A stretch of 64,000 nt of DNA, taken from positions 1-64,000 of the forward strand of contig JAFSEB010000063.1 of NCBI GenBank assembly GCA_017435905.1, written 5' to 3'. Origin of the DNA: Clostridia bacterium (lineage in GTDB: Bacteria > Bacillota > Clostridia > Christensenellales > CAG-138). The translations under genes and the position numbers were made by a program. The notes below the pieces were generated by a model. The model was not told the origin of the DNA, did not search any database, and worked only from the letters and a program-made list of their open reading frames with translations. This document shows positions 36,070-47,615 of the stretch, in pieces (the first letter of the stretch is position 1; every line of letters starts with the position of its first letter).

Positions 36070-36702
36070 TTACTTTTGAATTTTGATCAAAAGCAGCTTT
36101 CCCTGTTTGACCGATACGGTCGCCGTTTCACCGGGCAGCACTTCGTTGCTTATGCCGTACTGATACTCACAGGTGATCTCGCCGTCATGAAGCGGATACT
36201 TTGCGCCGGTAACGGTGATGCCTTTTGCACAGCCTGTGATGTTCAGAAGCGAAAAGAACGCATACCGGTCACAGATGGATACGGGTTTATCCGATACGAT
36301 CTCCATTTCGGAATAGTCGTCTGTGATGCTGCCTTTCTTACCAAGGGAGTCGAGGTACAGAAGGATCGACACATTGCCGAGGGTATGGTCAAGCCTTGCC
36401 CCGACAACGCCGATCAAAAGAAAAGTATCAAACCCTCTTTTAACGGCTTCCTTGACGGCAAAGACGGTGTCGGTATCATCCTTTTCACAGGGGAGCACGA
36501 TGGTCTCCACATCAAGGTGCGGATTTTCGTGGGAATCGAAATCACCGACGATCAACCCCGGCTTCACTTGCAGCCGACCCAAATGCTTCAGACCGCTGTC
36601 GCAGAAAACCACATAGTCATCCGCACACAGCTTTTCACGGATGAAATCATAATTGTTGATGTCCGCACCGCCCACGATGACACAGCGTTTCATTTTCCTC
36701 AT
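36070..36702 (-). CDS. thiN: Thiamine diphosphokinase ThiN
   Basis: The 210-residue enzyme transfers pyrophosphate from ATP to thiamine, giving thiamine diphosphate. Motifs typical of the family are CVIVGGADINNYDFI, FCDSGLKHLG, LIVGDFDSHENPH, DDTDTVFAVKEA and GVVGARLDHTLGNV. ATG 36702 has AGGA 6 nt upstream and lies one base after the cytX gene, so it is the last gene of the thiamine operon. Confidence 0.93.
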   Translation of the reverse strand: MRKMKRCVIVGGADINNYDFIREKLCADDYVVFCDSGLKHLGRLQVKPGLIVGDFDSHENPHLDVETIVLPCEKDDTDTVFAVKEAVKRGFDTFLLIGVVGARLDHTLGNVSILLYLDSLGKKGSITDDYSEMEIVSDKPVSICDRYAFFSLLNITGCAKGITVTGAKYPLHDGEITCEYQYGISNEVLPGETATVSVKQGKLLLIKIQK

Positions 36703-36703
36703 C

Positions 36704-37876
36704 TCATTTCCTGTCTTTTCTTTTTATTTTGCTGACTGCAGCACACAGTGCGATCGTAATAAGCATATCGGGCAGGGTGTTTCCGACGACGATATCCACC
36801 TGCATCAGCAGCCTGTAAACCACAAAACCCACAAGCCAGATCATCAGGTTGCACATGTTGAAGGCACTTGCTTCCGTATTCTGCTTCAGAATAAAGAAGT
36901 CAGCGATCTCTATGGCGATCATCGGTGCGAACACAGATCCGATAAAATACAGGAAATCCGTAATATCGGCGAGGGGCAGAAAGATCGCACCGACCGTACC
37001 GATCACTGTCACGGCAACGGCGACCCACTTTCCGTTGATCTTGACTGACAGCGATTCGCTGGAAATACCGGCGGAATATGCATCAAGGAAAGTCGTTGTA
37101 ACGGTAGAGAATATCACGGTCAGAAGTCCCGCAATGCCAAGTCCGGCTTTTACCATGATCCGGGCAATATCGGATTCGCCGGTAAAGATGGCAGCACCCA
37201 TACCGATCATATACATCCAGCAGCTGACCAAGCCGTATGTAAGAGCGCTGACCGCCGTCGCCTTGACGGGCTTTTTGGCTTCTCTGGTATAGTCGCTGAT
37301 CAGCGGCAGCCAGGAAAGGGGCATGGCAACGGAAAGCTCCACAGCGGCGCCGAATGTCATGCCATCACCGCCGGTATGCAAGGCACTGCCGTTGCCGAAG
37401 ATCACAAAACTGAGGATGACCGTCAGGACAAACAAAGCGCCCATTGCAGCGGTGTTGACTTTGCCGAGGTTCCTGATGCCGATCAGGATCCAAAGGATGA
37501 TGAGCGCACCGATCACGACGCACCAGATCCAGCTGCCGATATCCAAAATACCGTTGACTGCCAAAGCACCGTCATAGATCATGATGCCGGTCCAGCCGAC
37601 AAGCTGAATGATGTTCAGCAAGGAGAAAAGCATAGCTCCCTTGCTGCCGAAGCTCATCTTTGCTGTTTCCATTGCGCTTTTGCTCACCTTGCCGCCGATC
37701 AGACCGGCAAGGAAAAGCATCGCACAACCGATGATGTGACCGATCAATATTGCAAGCAAGCCCTTTGAAAAGCCGAGAGGGGCAAAATATGTGCCGGTCA
37801 GGATCTCGGCGATGGAGACAGCGGCGCCAAACCAAATCAAGCCGTTTTCAAATACAGAGGTGCGTTTTTCTTCCAT
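36704..37876 (-). CDS. cytX: Hydroxymethylpyrimidine transporter CytX
   Basis: The 390-residue nucleobase-cation-symport-1 permease has about eleven or twelve membrane segments. Key parts are GLIWFGAAVSIAEILTGTYF, a family start, MPLSWLPLISDYTREAKKPV, and TTTFLDAYSAGIS. CytX proteins are found in thiamine operons under TPP riboswitches and are thought to import HMP. AAAGGAGG precedes ATG 37876. The gene starts one base after the thiD stop. Confidence 0.9.
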   Translation of the reverse strand: MEEKRTSVFENGLIWFGAAVSIAEILTGTYFAPLGFSKGLLAILIGHIIGCAMLFLAGLIGGKVSKSAMETAKMSFGSKGAMLFSLLNIIQLVGWTGIMIYDGALAVNGILDIGSWIWCVVIGALIILWILIGIRNLGKVNTAAMGALFVLTVILSFVIFGNGSALHTGGDGMTFGAAVELSVAMPLSWLPLISDYTREAKKPVKATAVSALTYGLVSCWMYMIGMGAAIFTGESDIARIMVKAGLGIAGLLTVIFSTVTTTFLDAYSAGISSESLSVKINGKWVAVAVTVIGTVGAIFLPLADITDFLYFIGSVFAPMIAIEIADFFILKQNTEASAFNMCNLMIWLVGFVVYRLLMQVDIVVGNTLPDMLITIALCAAVSKIKRKDRK

Positions 37877-37877
37877 T

Positions 37878-38690
37878 TTACCGTACCTCCTTTGCGTATT
37901 CACCCTGCAGGTCAAAAGCATGATACATCGGACCGGAACCCTTCCCCAAATCGAGCATTGCCGCCAAAGCGCCGGAGATATAGCTCTTTGCTCTCCGAAC
38001 AGATTCGGCGAGAGAAAAACCCTTGGCAAGATTGGCTGCGATGGCACTTGAAAGCGTACAGCCTGTGCCATGGGTGTTGGGATTGTCAATGCGCTTGCCC
38101 TCAAACCAAACCGGTTCTCCGTTTGCGTAAAGAAGGTCGTTTGCATCGTTGACGCTGTGACCGCCCTTGAGCAAAACGGCACAATGATAGCTGTCTCCGA
38201 TCTGCTTTGCAGCGGCGATCATATCCTCTTTCGTTTCAATGGGCATACCGGAGAGGATCTGCGCTTCCGGAATGTTTGGCGTCACAAGGGTTGCAAGGGG
38301 CAGCAATTCTTCGATAAGGGTCTGTACTGCGCCGTTTTTCATCAGCGCTGAACCGCTTGTTGCCACCATCACGGGGTCAATGACCACATTCTTTGCACCG
38401 TAGAAGCGGAGCCTCTCTGCGATCACACGGATCAGCTCGCAGGATGCTGCCATACCGATTTTGACGGCATCGGGATCAATGTCCTCGAATACCGCATCGA
38501 TCTGTTGCTTCAAAAAATCCGGTGTTGATTCCTGAATTGCTCTTACGCCGGTCGTGTTCTGTGCCGTCAGCGCTGTCACTGCGCTCATGGCATAAACACC
38601 ATTCATGGTCATTGTTTTCAAATCTGCCTGAATGCCGGCGCCTCCACTGCAGTCGCTTCCTGCAATGGTCAATGCTGTTTTCTTTTTCAT
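37878..38690 (-). CDS. thiD: Hydroxymethylpyrimidine / phosphomethylpyrimidine kinase ThiD
   Basis: The 270-residue ribokinase-family enzyme phosphorylates HMP twice to HMP-PP. It shows TIAGSDCSGGAGIQADLKTM, DPVMVATSGSALM, TPNIPEAQILSGM and the anion-hole segment NTHGTGCTLSSAIAANLA with its catalytic Asp/Gly-rich loop. AAAGGAG lies 7 nt before ATG 38690. With CytX it forms a module for uptake and activation of HMP. Confidence 0.95.
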   Translation of the reverse strand: MKKKTALTIAGSDCSGGAGIQADLKTMTMNGVYAMSAVTALTAQNTTGVRAIQESTPDFLKQQIDAVFEDIDPDAVKIGMAASCELIRVIAERLRFYGAKNVVIDPVMVATSGSALMKNGAVQTLIEELLPLATLVTPNIPEAQILSGMPIETKEDMIAAAKQIGDSYHCAVLLKGGHSVNDANDLLYANGEPVWFEGKRIDNPNTHGTGCTLSSAIAANLAKGFSLAESVRRAKSYISGALAAMLDLGKGSGPMYHAFDLQGEYAKEVR

Positions 38691-38777
38691 CGTGTTGCTC
38701 CTTTCTTTTTTCAGCATTGTTTTCTATAGCGGCATAAGGTGGTGCCCCCAATCTGCCGCTTGAAGCTGTCGGCGAAT

Positions 38778-39434
38778 TTATGCCGAAGCAAACTTCCAAA
38801 AAGGTGTCAGATCAAAATAGTCCCGGAGGTAAATATCGGTAAGATACTGCAGTTCCTCTTGTCTGCTTTCGTGCGGATCGTATACACCGACAACCGCAAA
38901 GCCATCCTGTTTTGCCGTGTAAGCAGCATGGTAAGAATCTTCGATCACAGCCGTGGTGCTGCGATCCGTTTTAAGATGCGCCATTGCGCTGCGGAAGATC
39001 TCAGGGCTGTCCTTTCCGCTTCCAACTTCGGTACAGGTGAAGATCCCGGAGAAGAAGTGCCGCATCCCCGAGCGCTGCAATGCCGCCTCTGCCTGATAGC
39101 GCTCGGTTGCAGTTGCAATGCACATCCCGATATTCCTGCGCTGCAGTTCCTCCAGAAAGGCGGCCACGCCCGGTTTCGGTTCGACCGTATGAAAAAAGAA
39201 GCCTTCCACGGTGCGGTTGATCCCATTCATGATGTCTTCTGTAGAAAGTGGGAGATGATACTTTGCCTGAAGGTATTCGGCAGACTGCAATAAGCTCATG
39301 GGCTTTAAAAGCGTCTGCAGTTCGGCTTCCGGTTCCTTTCCGACGGAACGAAGAAATTCTTTGCCGGCGGTATCCCACACGAACATGGAATCAAACAGCG
39401 TCCCGTCAAAGTCGAAAATAACGCCCTTCAGCAT
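38778..39434 (-). CDS. HAD-family phosphatase, possible thiamine monophosphate phosphatase
   Basis: The 218-residue HAD hydrolase (beta-phosphoglucomutase-like group) has motif I FDFDGTLFDSM with the nucleophilic Asp, motif II CIATATERY, Lys in SGKDSPEIF and motif IV VIEDSYHAAY. It overlaps thiE by 7 nt in a thiamine operon, so its substrate is probably a thiamine intermediate. A phosphatase acting on thiamine monophosphate would supply the thiamine that ThiN needs. That role is inferred from context only. Confidence 0.8.
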   Translation of the reverse strand: MLKGVIFDFDGTLFDSMFVWDTAGKEFLRSVGKEPEAELQTLLKPMSLLQSAEYLQAKYHLPLSTEDIMNGINRTVEGFFFHTVEPKPGVAAFLEELQRRNIGMCIATATERYQAEAALQRSGMRHFFSGIFTCTEVGSGKDSPEIFRSAMAHLKTDRSTTAVIEDSYHAAYTAKQDGFAVVGVYDPHESRQEELQYLTDIYLRDYFDLTPFWKFASA

Positions 39435-40063
39435 AGACCGAGTTCCTGCGCTCTTGCCTTCAGTTCTGCCGCTGCGGCCTCGGGATCCTTCGCTTTCATG
39501 ATGGCGGAGACCACACAGATGCCGGCAATGGGGATCCCCGCAAGAATATCGATGTTATCCTTGTTGAGACCGCCAATGGCACCGACGGGGATCGGTACGG
39601 CATGGCAAATATCACGGAGCGTATCGGTGGAGGTCAAAACCGTCTTTACCTTTGTGGTGGTGGGATAAATTGCGCCGACACCGAGATAGTCGGCGCCTTG
39701 TTCGTACGCTTCCTTTGCCCGGGGAACGGTTTTTGCCGTTGCACCGACGATCTTATCATCACCCATCAGCCTTCTTGCGGTCGAAACAGGCATGTCGGCA
39801 GCGCCTACATGAACGCCCTCCGCATCGATGGCGAGCGCCACATCCACACGGTCATCGATGATCAGCGGTACACGGTATCGCTTTGCAACGGCGTGCACCT
39901 TCTCGGCAAGCCGGATATACTCCCGGGTGCTCTTGTCCTTTTCCCGAAGCTGAAGGAGGGTCGCACCGCCCTTGAGCGCCTGTTCCACCCGGAAAAGGAA
40001 CTCTTCCTCCGTGCAGCCGGTGCTGTCCGTGATGAAATATAAACCGGGATCAAAGTCTTTCAT
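39428..40063 (-). CDS. thiE: Thiamine phosphate synthase ThiE
   Basis: The 211-residue TIM-barrel enzyme joins HMP-PP and thiazole phosphate to thiamine monophosphate. Motifs are LYFITDSTGCTEEEF, GGATLLQLREKDKSTREYI, PLIIDDRVDVALAIDAEGVH, DYLGVGAIYPTTTK and PVGAIGGLNKDN. AAGGAG lies 6 nt before ATG 40063. Confidence 0.95.
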   Translation of the reverse strand: MKDFDPGLYFITDSTGCTEEEFLFRVEQALKGGATLLQLREKDKSTREYIRLAEKVHAVAKRYRVPLIIDDRVDVALAIDAEGVHVGAADMPVSTARRLMGDDKIVGATAKTVPRAKEAYEQGADYLGVGAIYPTTTKVKTVLTSTDTLRDICHAVPIPVGAIGGLNKDNIDILAGIPIAGICVVSAIMKAKDPEAAAAELKARAQELGLC

Positions 40064-40073
40064 GTTCGTCTCC

Positions 40074-41327
40074 TTATACATATACGTAGTCATTCAAAAC
40101 CGGCTGCAAGCCTTCGCCGGACATATCCTTGTACATGGCTTCAAAGCTGCGGTCATCATCGATCTCAAACTGTTCATCGCCTTTGGCGGCATCATCTTCC
40201 TTGCCGGTGTATTTGCTTTCATGGTCGCCGATGCCGGTGGAAACGCCTGCCGAAACCTTTGTCGCAGCGATCTTTACGATGCCGTTGCGAAACGCTGCAC
40301 TTTCACGGGAGGATACCGTGATGCCCACAAAGGGCAGGAAGATGCGGTAGGCGCAGAGGATCTGGCACAGCTGCTTTTCGCCCACATCAAGAGGGTTGAT
40401 CTTATCGTTGTTGATGATCGGTCGAAGTCTCGGACAGGACAGGGACATTTCCGCATGGGGATACTTGCGCTGCAGGTAATACACATGAAGTGCGCTTGCC
40501 AAAGCATCCTTCCTGAAGTCAGACAGACCGAGAAGTGCAGAAAAGGCGACGCCGCGCATGCCGCCCCGGAGCGCCCGTTCCTGTGCGTCAAAACGGTAGG
40601 GCCATACTCGCTTATGCCCGAACAGATGGAGCGTTTCGTATTTGTCTGCATCGTAGGTCTCCTGAAACACGGTAACATAATCGGCGCCACACTCGTGGAG
40701 GTATTTGTATTCATCGGTGTTCACAGGATAGATTTCCAAACCCACCATGCGGAAATACTTTCTTGCCAGCTTACATGCTTCACCGATGTATGCTACATCG
40801 CTCTTGGCACGGCTCTCACCGGTCAGGATCAGGATCTCCTCCATGCCGGAATCGGCAATGACCTGCATTTCATGCTCGATCTCCGCCATGTTCAGCTTCA
40901 TGCGGTTGATGTGGTTATAGCAGTTGAAACCGCAGTACACGCAGTAATTCTCGCAGTAATTGGCAATGTACAGAGGGGTAAACAAGTAAACGGTGTTGCC
41001 GAAATGCTTGCTTGTCTCCATACGGGCTTTCTGCGCCATTTGCTCAAGGAAAGGCTCTGCGGCAGGGGATAGAAGCGCCTTGAGATCCTCAATGGAACAA
41101 GTACTGTGATCAAGGGCCGTACGGACATCACGGGCGGTATAGGCGGAAGGATCAAAAGAATTCATCTGCGACAGCACCTGCCGACAGACGTCGGATTCGA
41201 TGATCTCCATGCCCGGCAGGTATTCCATATGATCTTTGCGGCTGGATGGGTCTGATTCGAGCTTGTGTTTTTTCTCCAGAGCCTCCGGCGAGAGATGTCC
41301 GGAATCGACAAAAAATCGGTTTTCCAT
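40074..41327 (-). CDS. thiH: 2-iminoacetate synthase ThiH
   Basis: The 417-residue radical SAM enzyme splits tyrosine to give dehydroglycine for the thiazole ring. The cluster motif CENYCVYCGF has the CX3CX2C spacing. Further family segments are TPLYIANYCENY, EEILILTGESRAKSDVAYIG, YVTVFQETYDADKYETLH and SLSCPRLRPI. GAGGAG lies 7 nt before ATG 41327. Use of ThiH instead of ThiO fits an anaerobe. Confidence 0.95.
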   Translation of the reverse strand: MENRFFVDSGHLSPEALEKKHKLESDPSSRKDHMEYLPGMEIIESDVCRQVLSQMNSFDPSAYTARDVRTALDHSTCSIEDLKALLSPAAEPFLEQMAQKARMETSKHFGNTVYLFTPLYIANYCENYCVYCGFNCYNHINRMKLNMAEIEHEMQVIADSGMEEILILTGESRAKSDVAYIGEACKLARKYFRMVGLEIYPVNTDEYKYLHECGADYVTVFQETYDADKYETLHLFGHKRVWPYRFDAQERALRGGMRGVAFSALLGLSDFRKDALASALHVYYLQRKYPHAEMSLSCPRLRPIINNDKINPLDVGEKQLCQILCAYRIFLPFVGITVSSRESAAFRNGIVKIAATKVSAGVSTGIGDHESKYTGKEDDAAKGDEQFEIDDDRSFEAMYKDMSGEGLQPVLNDYVYV

Positions 41328-41338
41328 GGGTATTCTCC

Positions 41339-42112
41339 TCAATCACGCAGGAAGCCGGTCAGCGGATCGGAAGCGGAAGCACCGCGGGTCAGCACACGGC
41401 CAAGGCCGGAAAGATATGCTTTTCTTCCCGCTTCGATCGCCTGCCGGAAAGCGGATGCCATCAGCGGCAGATCACCGGCGGTCGCAAGGGCGGTATTTGC
41501 CATAATGGCTGCCGCACCCATTTCCATGGCTTCACAAGCCTGAGAGGGCCTGCCGATACCGGCATCCACAATGATGGGCAGGTCGATCTCATCGATCAGG
41601 ATTTGAATGAACTCACGGGTTGCGAGCCCCTTGTTGGAGCCGATGGGGGAGGCCAAAGGCATAATGGTAGCGGCACCGGCGCTGACCATGTCACGGGCTG
41701 CGTTCAGGTCGGGATACATATAGGGCATGACCACAAAACCCTCGTTTGCAAGTATTTCGGTGGCTTTGACGGTTTCCTGATTGTCGGGGAGAAGATACTT
41801 GCTGTCACGCATGATCTCCACCTTCACGAAATTACCGCAGCCAAGTTCTCTTGCAAGGCGGGCAATGCGGACGGCTTCCTCCGCATTTCTCGCCCCGGAG
41901 GTGTTGGGCAGCAGGGTGATGCCTTCGGGAATGTAGTCCAGAATGTTTTCATGCTCCTTGGTGTTGGCACGGCGAACCGCAAGGGTGATGATCTCCGCAC
42001 CGGCATCCTTGATCGCTGCGTCAATGAGCTTCATGGAATACTTGCCGGAGCCGAGAATAAAACGGGAATTGAATTCGTGACCGCCAATGACGAGCTTATC
42101 GTTGTGAATCAT
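41339..42112 (-). CDS. thiG: Thiazole synthase ThiG
   Basis: The 257-residue enzyme forms the thiazole ring from DXP, dehydroglycine and ThiS thiocarboxylate. Segments seen are [48 protein letters not shown] (Schiff-base Lys), [13 protein letters not shown] and [18 protein letters not shown]. Start ATG 42112 is preferred to 42115 because AAGGA is then 6 nt away. Confidence 0.95.
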
Positions 42113-42128
42113 CATAAATCCTTCTTTC

Positions 42129-42764
42129 TTATACTTCATATTCGCCTGCAAGAATGCGCAGGACGGTGTGTGCCTGATGTGCGGCGCAAAGCATAACACG
42201 AGGAGCCAGCAGACCGATGGCGCTTGCCGCATCGCTGACTTCATCGCCGCACAGGTAAAACCGTTTCGTAACTTTTCTTGTCCTGATGGTGTTCGGGGTG
42301 TCCATTCCTGCCATGCCGGAGGCTGCAACCAAATAACGGTCGGGTAATTGTTCCAAAACTCCGTTTGCAAGCATTGCCTTAGCCTCTGCACTGTCGAAGG
42401 CTTCGCAGACAATATCCGCATCTTTCAGGAGACTAACCATATTTTCTCCGGTGATCTTTTCCGTCACAGCCTTGATTTCCGTATACGGAGCGATCTCCAA
42501 CAGGTTTTCAGCAAGCGCCTCCGCCTTATAGCGGCCGATTTGATCTGCCTTGTATTGCTGACGGTGCAGGTTGGTAATGTCCACACGGTCAAAATCAATT
42601 AGAATCAGCCTGCCGATACCGGCCCTTGCCAATGCAACGGCGATGTTCGATCCTAAGCCGCCAAGGCCGCAAATCGCAACAGTTGCGGAAGAAAACCGTT
42701 TGTGAAGGGCTGATCCGTGGCGGGTGATCAAGGCGTCCGTCCATTCTTTTTTAGATGGGATCAC
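42129..42764 (-). CDS. thiF: ThiS adenylyltransferase ThiF
   Basis: The 211-residue E1-like enzyme activates the ThiS C-terminus. It has the nucleotide motif [38 protein letters not shown] and the [13 protein letters not shown] segment of the short Clostridial ThiF form, which lacks the CXXC zinc sites. The start is GTG 42764, which overlaps the ThiS end region: GGGAGGTGGTTAAGTG serves as ribosome site, ThiS stop and start. Confidence 0.92.
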
Positions 42765-42959
42765 TTAACCACCTCCCACAAAGCTGACGATCTCCAGACT
42801 GTCGCCATCTTCAAGAACGGTAACATCATACCGGGACTTAAATACGATGTTGCCGTTGCGCTCTACTGCGATCCGTTTGGGATCGTAGTCCGTTGTCTTT
42901 AGATATGCCGCTACCGTTTTTCCTGCAATATCCAGCTCTGTTCCGTTTACTTTTACCAT
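42765..42959 (-). CDS. thiS: Sulfur carrier protein ThiS
   Basis: The 64-residue ubiquitin-like protein carries sulfur as a C-terminal thiocarboxylate. It starts VKVNGTELDIAG and ends VLEDGDSLEIVSFVGGG; the Gly-Gly end is the functional site, here with a third Gly. AGGAGGTG lies 6 nt before ATG 42959. It is the first gene after the riboswitches. Confidence 0.95.
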   Translation of the reverse strand: MVKVNGTELDIAGKTVAAYLKTTDYDPKRIAVERNGNIVFKSRYDVTVLEDGDSLEIVSFVGGG

Positions 42960-42975
42960 GAATGCACCTCCTGAA

Positions 42976-43013
42976 ATAAAAAACGGGAAATCTTCGATTT
43001 GGAAGATTCCCGT
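42976..43013 (-). terminator. Expression-platform terminator of TPP riboswitch B
   Basis: On the minus strand CGGGAATCTTC pairs with GAAGATTTCCCG over a short loop and is followed by TTTTTTATTT, just before the thiS ribosome site. Confidence 0.85.
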
Positions 43014-43026
43014 GATGTTCACAAAA

Positions 43027-43108
43027 GTCCCTACGTTGGCATTATCCAAATCAGGTATATGGGTCGAAGGTCACACCTTCCTCTCAGCCTGCAAACACAA
43101 GCTCCCCG
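43027..43108 (-). ncRNA. TPP riboswitch B (proximal to thiS)
   Basis: On the minus strand the element reads GGGGAGC, then GGCTGAGAGGAAGG, GACCCATATACCTGATTTGG and ATAATGCCAACGTAGGGA, matching the THI-box consensus (CTGAGA, ACCTGAT--GGATAATGCC, GTAGGGA). It binds thiamine diphosphate and controls the terminator at 42976-43013. Confidence 0.95.
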
Positions 43109-43122
43109 CATATGAAATTGTG

Positions 43123-43160
43123 CAAAAAAACAGGAGACCACCCCTTGGGATGCCTCCTGT
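43123..43160 (-). terminator. Expression-platform terminator of TPP riboswitch A
   Basis: On the minus strand ACAGGAG and CTCCTGT pair around a partly paired inner part and T7 follows. It lies between the two aptamers, so transcription must pass two separate terminators. Confidence 0.85.
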
Positions 43161-43177
43161 AAAAAATCCGAAAAGAT

Positions 43178-43263
43178 GACTTCCTACGGCGGCATTATCC
43201 GCATCAGGTTATAGGGTCGAAGTTTGGTTACTTCCTCTCAGCCTGCAAACACAAGCTCCCCTG
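43178..43263 (-). ncRNA. TPP riboswitch A (distal, first transcribed)
   Basis: On the minus strand it reads GGGGAGC, GGCTGAGAGGAAG, GACCCTATAACCTGATGCGG and ATAATGCCGCCGTAGGAA. It is nearly identical to riboswitch B in the first arm (GAGCTTGTGTTTGCAGGCTG in both) and differs in the P3 and P4 arms. Confidence 0.95.
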
Positions 43264-43280
43264 TATTTCTTTCGCTTAAC

Positions 43281-43309
43281 AGTATACAGCCGATTTCATG
43301 AAAAAACAA
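43281..43309 (-). promoter_or_regulatory. Promoter of the thiamine operon
   Basis: On the minus strand TTGTTT (43304-43309) and TATACT (43281-43286) are 17 nt apart, about 15 nt before riboswitch A. Confidence 0.7.
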
Positions 43310-44252: not shown

Positions 44253-44483
44253 ATGAATAAAGCAATTGAGAAAAAGGTTGGAGAAAACATCAGGGCTTTG
44301 CGTGAACAAAGAAAGATGACGCAGGATCTTCTTGCGGCAAAAATGCAGCTTCAGGGATGTGAAATCACCAGGAGTGCGATTGCAAAGATCGAGGTTGGAC
44401 AACGGCATCTTTATCCCGATGAGGTCATTTTGATCAAAAAAATATTGAATGCCAGTTATGATGATATTTTCAAAGGAAACTGA
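44253..44483 (+). CDS. Small XRE-family DNA-binding protein
   Basis: The 76-residue protein is almost only a Cro/C1 helix-turn-helix: VGENIRALREQRKMTQDLLA, EITRSAIAKIEVGQRHLYPD and LIKKILNASYDDIFKGN. It should bind DNA as a dimer; the inverted repeat at 44161-44184 is a candidate site. The ribosome site is weak (GGTAGG, 5 nt). It is divergent from the broken lipoprotein gene. Confidence 0.85.
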   Translation: MNKAIEKKVGENIRALREQRKMTQDLLAAKMQLQGCEITRSAIAKIEVGQRHLYPDEVILIKKILNASYDDIFKGN

Positions 44484-44955: not shown

Positions 44956-46870
<1,915 letters not shown>

Positions 46871-47189: not shown

Positions 47190-47615
47190 ATGAAGTTTGG
47201 AGAAAAGGTAAGACTGCTGCGAAATGAAAAGAAGTTGTCCCAGACGGAACTGGGGAAAATATGTGGTCTGTCCCTGCGGACGATCCGCAATTATGAGGTG
47301 GACGGACGCTATCCGAAGCAACGCGAGGTTTACGCCAAACTTGCCGCCGCACTTGGATGTGAGATAAACTTCCTGCTTTCCGAAGACGAAGAATTTGTTC
47401 TTCAGGCACAACAGAGCTACGGCTACAAAGGTGCCAAGGATGCCGAAGAATTGGTTGCCGGTGTGTCTGCGCTCTTTGCCGGTGGTGAATTGTCCGAGAA
47501 TGACAAGGATGCTGTGATGCGCGCCTTGCAGGATGCCTACTGGATGGCGAAAGAACGGAACAAAGAAAAGTACACACCGAAGAAATATCGGAAAGATAGT
47601 GAGGAAATGGAATGA
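47190..47615 (+). CDS. XRE-family repressor of the mobile element
   Basis: The 141-residue regulator has a C1-type helix-turn-helix (RNEKKLSQTELGKICGLSLR, TIRNYEVDGRYPKQREVYAK) and a C-terminal part (AEELVAGVSALFAGGELSEN, then DKDAVMRALQDAYWMAKERN) common in regulators of integrative elements. AGGTGAGG lies 8 nt before the ATG. Its end overlaps a 15-codon frame and then a truncated J-domain frame in ATGA-type overlaps. Confidence 0.88.
   Translation: MKFGEKVRLLRNEKKLSQTELGKICGLSLRTIRNYEVDGRYPKQREVYAKLAAALGCEINFLLSEDEEFVLQAQQSYGYKGAKDAEELVAGVSALFAGGELSENDKDAVMRALQDAYWMAKERNKEKYTPKKYRKDSEEME

Follow-up and report, generated by a model that had tools for sequence, protein, structure and literature searches.

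The stretch of DNA analysed here (the window, 64 kb in all) carries on its minus strand a leader in which two TPP riboswitches stand in series before thiS. Our analysis makes it very probable that this leader is a pseudo-cooperative tandem TPP riboswitch repressing a thiazole-synthesis and HMP-salvage operon, and that its two copies belong to old, position-specific lineages. Two TPP riboswitches in series before thiS in Bacillota are already known, and the window confirms this known architecture. What is newly added is the assignment of the copies to lineages by position across 80 further tandem leaders.

A cmscan search of the window with RF00059 returned exactly two TPP aptamers, both full length (model positions 1-105) and both on the minus strand. 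Copy 1 (43164-43272) scored 65.7 bits (E value 1.1e-10) and copy 2 (43011-43118) scored 65.2 bits (E value 1.5e-10), each above the Rfam gathering score of 54.3. This agrees with an earlier note on this DNA, which had placed two complete THI-box aptamers before thiS; its intervals, 43178-43263 and 43027-43108, fall inside the matches. The aptamers are 45 nt apart, and the sensor words GCTGAGA, ACCTGAT, GGNTAATNCC, and CGNAGG are present in both. Copy 1 is of the GC-GC/GGAA type, with GCTGAGA, ACCTGAT, GGATAATGCC, and CGTAGG intact, and copy 2 is of the TT-AA/GGGA type. An intrinsic terminator follows each aptamer, as the note had also proposed: terminator 1 at 43130-43160 (-18.9 kcal/mol; U tract TTTTTT, 43124-43129) and terminator 2 at 42983-43013 (-14.8 kcal/mol; U tract TTTTT, 42978-42982). 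A consensus scan agrees with both on the minus strand. The AGGAGG ribosome-binding site of thiS (42967-42972) lies outside terminator 2. Two aptamers of the same class, each with its own expression platform and without an intervening gene or promoter, constitute the arrangement that has been termed pseudo-cooperative for TPP riboswitches in series (PMC9481103).

The distribution of such leaders was surveyed with a strict tandem pattern that requires the 3' half of copy 1 and the 5' half of copy 2 to be intact and the spacing to be limited. The pattern has one match in the window and none in 100 shuffles. Across 84,980 species, each represented by one genome, it was found in 82 stretches, mostly from metagenome assemblies named Oscillospiraceae or Clostridia and also from Floccifex, Aerococcus, Kandleria, and a Fretibacterium MAG. 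The aptamer halves outside the selection are almost always intact (GCTGAGA of copy 1 in 81/82, the 3' half of copy 2 in 79/82). Because halves and spacing are selected for, the figure is an undercount, and the tandem of L033, described below, was missed. Of the 82 parsed loci, 81 were used, L080 being left out since the first half of its copy 1 was not recognised; the 80 further loci compared are L042-L121, of which L045 and L101 share an isolate name. The survey also bears on whether the tandem could be a misassembly. The window comes from a draft genome of 83 contigs, but its two copies have different 3' halves and terminators, and 80 other parsed loci show this arrangement with copies homologous to them, which leaves misassembly with a negligible probability.

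Directly upstream of aptamer 1 lies the presumed leader promoter, consisting of the -35-like hexamer TTGTTT (43304-43309, 3/6 consensus), a 17-nt spacer, and the -10-like hexamer TATACT (43281-43286, 5/6 consensus). The two hexamers total only 8/12. Related thiS leaders have TTGTAT or TTGTTT and TATAAT in the same place and with the same spacing. The earlier note had named a promoter between the two aptamers as an observation that would count against its reading. No site of at least 9/12 was found between the copies on the minus strand of the window, where the best reached 7/12. Among the 78 of 81 loci with enough upstream DNA, 69 have a promoter-like site of at least 9/12 upstream of copy 1 and none has one between the copies, so that, as far as sequence tells, the second riboswitch has no promoter of its own.

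The operon behind the leader, all on the minus strand, has the order thiS-thiF-thiG-thiH-thiE-HAD-thiD-cytX-TPK. It comprises thiS (42765-42959, TIGR01683), thiF (42129-42764, TIGR02354), thiG (41339-42118, PF05690), thiH (40074-41342, TIGR02351), thiE (39428-40093, TIGR00693), an HAD-family hydrolase (38778-39434, PF13419), thiD (37878-38717, TIGR00097), the putative HMP transporter gene cytX (36704-38182 for the ORF as listed, with the family match starting at residue 112; TIGR02358), and thiamin pyrophosphokinase (36070-36702, PF04263 and PF04265). We did not find thiC in the window's genome, which is 93.75% complete, and thus the operon probably makes thiazole and imports HMP through CytX. 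The HAD hydrolase is a candidate thiamin-phosphate phosphatase, an activity that would be required since the last gene of the operon encodes thiamin pyrophosphokinase. An HAD-like ORF with a similar start sequence occupies the same place, between thiE and thiD, in the operon of G034 (L130, 3313-3972).

The way in which the two terminators may be controlled was analysed by folding. When the window transcript is cut before the 3' terminator arm, the partition function pairs the 5' arm of terminator 1 with the pyrophosphate-sensor arm of aptamer 1 (43148-43160 with 43186-43200, predicted antiterminator 1). It likewise pairs TCCAAATC, in the 5' arm and loop of terminator 2 (42996-43003), with its complement GATTTGGA on the aptamer-2 side (43045-43052, predicted antiterminator 2). 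Across 78 loci, the mean pairing tends to involve the same regions. Terminator-like hairpins, defined as -6 kcal/mol or better plus a U tract, follow copy 1 in 78/81 loci (4/81 in a mononucleotide-shuffled control), copy 2 in 68/81 (16/81 in the control), and both copies in 66/81. After copy 2, such a hairpin is often missing from the tandem leaders of the thiamine-binding-protein class.

The pairing partners at the second gate are specific to the copy in many loci. Terminator 2 contains an exact 5-mer complement of the variable word of its own aptamer in 37 of 67 loci and of the copy 1 word in 3 of 67; 30 of the 67 hairpins have no exact complementary word. Permuting the words between loci gave a mean of 12.3 own matches and a maximum of 22 in 5000 permutations, a comparison in which kinship of the loci inflates the result, and the own matches span the word types CCAAA, CCACA, CCATA, CCGTA, and CCACG. 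Terminator 1 showed no own preference in the same test (9/78 own, 9/78 cross), so the case for gate 1 comes from folding and duplex energy. Own duplexes were stronger than cross duplexes in 58/78 loci for terminator 1 (-13.7 vs -11.7) and in 56/67 loci for terminator 2 (-13.9 vs -11.1). Taken together, the frequent complementarity of terminator 2 to its own aptamer and the energetics of both hairpins support the prediction that each copy has a separate antiterminator, gate 2 by copy-specific complementarity and gate 1 by folding and duplex energy.

We infer from these features that both copies bind TPP, that both hairpins terminate transcription, that the gates act independently, and that RNA polymerase would start at about 43275, just before aptamer 1. 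TPP on aptamer 1 would hold the pyrophosphate-sensor arm and the closing stem, antiterminator 1 would be blocked, and terminator 1 would stop transcription. Transcripts that escape would meet aptamer 2 with its own antiterminator and then terminator 2, and thiS would be reached only by those passing both gates. Readthrough would then approximate the product of two probabilities, so that the leak would fall, less TPP would suffice for half-repression, and the curve would become modestly steeper. In ideal mathematics, two equal gates in series reduce the 90-10% range from 81-fold to 40-fold and place half-repression at 0.41 K. The predicted steeper or lower-leak response agrees with the published model, and in the ideal case the gain would be modest.

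Two equal gates cannot be assumed, since a re-analysis of Bacillus anthracis RNA-seq data reports activity, under the conditions studied, for only the upstream member of a tandem TPP pair (PMC12121620). That one re-analysis would suit a device with two thresholds, and a device with two inputs, in which one copy senses thiamin or TMP, finds some encouragement in the statement that thiamin or TMP is the preferred ligand of certain RNAs assigned to the TPP class and that its tandem members need to be sorted (PMC9481103). The copies do differ consistently by position, but they do not differ in any of the conserved sensor words, and the antiterminator accounts at least partly for the differences of copy 2. 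We therefore give a second ligand or a clearly different threshold a minor, though not trivial, probability, and favor two TPP-responsive gates.

The closest known counterpart is the tenA leader of B. anthracis (Welz and Breaker 2007, as described in PMC2258182, PMC9481103, and PMC12121620), in which, as here, a single thiamine-gene operon is preceded by two complete TPP riboswitches that follow one another and have an intrinsic terminator each. The window differs in its operon, thiSFGH-E-D-cytX-TPK, and in that its copies represent, by sequence comparison, two position-specific lineages whose function is inferred. Contiguous TPP-TPP riboswitches of Bacillota have also been reported before thiS, thiG, and thiF (PMC12452182), and they share the gene association and the transcriptional mechanism of the window. 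The operon listed in that work on 5,418 genomes is tenA-...-thiS-thiG-thiF-thiD, and the passages of it consulted do not describe the gut Clostridia type with thiSFGH immediately behind the leader. Tandem TPP elements made up less than 1% of leaders in 2007 (PMC2258182), and 213 members have since been counted (PMC9481103). Our own counts fit the statement of the earlier note that they are known but rare. A similar tandem pattern was matched in 4 of 297 sampled genomes of the window's order, and two close TPP matches occur in 2 of 103 genomes of its family. Of 26 genomes that encode a related ThiH, 2 have a tandem immediately ahead of the operon and 19 a single riboswitch, and in 5 there is none or the contig ends; this sample consists of 24 genomes of the class with ThiH identity of at least 78% (G472, with a partial gene, left out) together with G034 and G031.

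A third known system has a different second element. TPP/HMP-PP tandem riboswitches likewise place two serial terminators before thiazole genes, but the second of their elements is an ON switch responding to HMP-PP (PMC6478431), whereas the second element of the window is a full TPP aptamer. One could suppose that terminator 2 is itself an HMP-PP ('thiS motif') riboswitch forming a TPP/HMP-PP logic gate, as riboswitches of this class take the form of a terminator hairpin with a conserved loop and in about 30% of cases lie just downstream of a TPP riboswitch (PMC6478431), and the loop of terminator 2 is conserved in the thiS class. In the known systems, however, the TPP riboswitch has its own terminator first (PMC6478431), and here terminator 2 is the only one that aptamer 2 has. 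In other operons the loop also varies together with the TPP aptamer next to it, and a scan at E values up to 5, with a library that may lack the HMP-PP model, gave no match. The stem of terminator 2 has no run of four G-U wobbles such as has been described for HMP-PP riboswitches, and on these grounds terminator 2 was rejected as a member of that class; we judge the logic gate very improbable. The approximately 200-nt gap before thiW in relatives was scanned for a third element at 12 loci, and the only matches to another Rfam family were glycine riboswitches on the opposite strand of L043. At 10 of these 12 loci both TPP copies attained the gathering score, as against one copy in L082 and none in L117.

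That the two copies are distinct is indicated by comparison across the tandem leaders. Copy 1 is nearly constant, its inner P4/P5 dinucleotides being GC-GC in 63 of 81 loci and its last A being preceded by another A (GGAA) in 78. The dinucleotides of copy 2 vary with the downstream gene class, being TT-AA before thiS (32/34 loci), GT-GC before one thiW-like group (10/11), and GC-GC before thiM (6/9), where classes were set by short protein motifs, with ThiW and the thiamine-binding protein checked by Pfam in one member each. In a tree of all copies, the position label changes 14 times, compared with 54 for shuffled labels, although few branches are well supported. Copy 1 of the window is 99% identical to copy 1 of L052, and copy 2 is up to 96% identical to copy 2 of L086. 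By sequence, then, the copies are position-orthologous, with copy 1 near constant and copy 2 varying with the downstream operon. Where other genomes have a single leader before this operon, it most resembles copy 2 in 15 of 19 cases and copy 1 in 4 (loci with a copy of at least 110 nt were left out of the copy-type comparison, which kept 76/81). Since such single leaders are mostly of the copy-2 type, the comparison suggests that the window's pair is old and heterotypic, made of two distinct riboswitch lineages rather than by a fresh duplication.

The earlier note had drawn the opposite conclusion from the almost identical first arms. The similarity itself stands, in that a 31-nt first-arm block of copy 1 (43231-43261) is identical to that of copy 2 (43077-43107), and a recent homotypic case does exist: L171 (G566) has a TT-AA pair of nearly identical copies before thiS, which by its sequence is a separate, independent recent duplication. 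The step from shared arms to duplication is not supported in the form given, because on alignment with relatives the copies pair by position across genomes, as the identities to L052 and L086, the tree labels, and the GC-GC and TT-AA dinucleotides, which differ as they do in relatives, all indicate. Outside the block the window's two aptamers differ in part, and the nearest copy-2 relatives have a different P3 in the first arm. The two copies have the same P3 in 7 of 81 loci, compared with 0.35% of between-genome pairs, and for this reason the 31 identical bases appear better explained by later local homogenisation. A recent in-place duplication that left two functionally redundant aptamers is accordingly improbable. 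We found nothing relevant on riboswitch gene conversion among the literature matches listed. The single thiS leader L161 (G648) joins a copy-1-type aptamer to a copy-2-kind terminator, as expected from recombination between copies, and is likely a collapsed tandem. In the family relative G012, the tandem of L033 (12739-13009, minus strand) has a copy-1 aptamer and terminator much like those of the window and precedes a thiW operon with thiamin pyrophosphokinase instead of thiS.

The leader and operon are patchily distributed and have probably moved together horizontally. Of 103 genomes in the window's family, 3 have a ThiH above the family cut-off, and the 4 other members of its genus in that set have none. 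The window's ThiH shares 93% identity with its counterpart in Pseudoflavonifractor gallinarum (L060), an Oscillospiraceae member, 87-89% with the closest sampled genomes in other orders, and 85% and 77% with the two family members. RpoB shows the opposite trend, falling from 93% in the genus to 83-84% in the family (75-86% for partial G034 pieces), 75% in the order, and 68-72% in other orders. DNA identity to L060 is 83.7% over 40078-43309, from thiH to the -35 hexamer, and homology ends at 43309. Both copies may have come down together with the operon, in part by horizontal transfer, and have now and then been homogenised locally with each other.

A more general possibility, which we put forward tentatively, is that the gut Clostridia tandem is a transferable module put together from two riboswitch lineages. 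In it, a near-invariant general gate (copy 1) would stand ahead of an operon-specific gate (copy 2, for thiS, thiW, thiM, or the thiamine-binding protein), the two would have different TPP thresholds, and gene conversion would keep the ligand arms similar. The leaders described above form a natural series of single copy-2-type and copy-1-type riboswitches, heterotypic tandems, a homotypic duplication, and a copy-1 aptamer on a copy-2-type terminator. This series lets one ask why a second riboswitch was added and whether the two gates are tuned alike.

Further observations concern mobility and the rest of the genome. The loci L047, L052, L056, and L097, from Floccifex porci and from MAGs labelled Peptoniphilaceae, Clostridia, and Ruminococcaceae, share a tandem leader and a thiW-like ORF with approximately 89-90% DNA identity over 1.7-5 kb, and wide horizontal transfer of this thiW-like tandem is probable. 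A large serine recombinase (44956-46689, minus strand; Resolvase, Recombinase, and DUF4368 domains) is encoded 1.6 kb upstream of the window's leader, with HTH ORFs nearby at 44253-44483 and 47190-47615, and these genes are possibly a mobile element beside the probably transferred operon. Elsewhere in the same draft genome there is one more TPP riboswitch, a single copy at 21417-21517 of contig C10, approximately 40 nt ahead of an ORF carrying a Thia_YuaJ domain (thiamine transporter gene).
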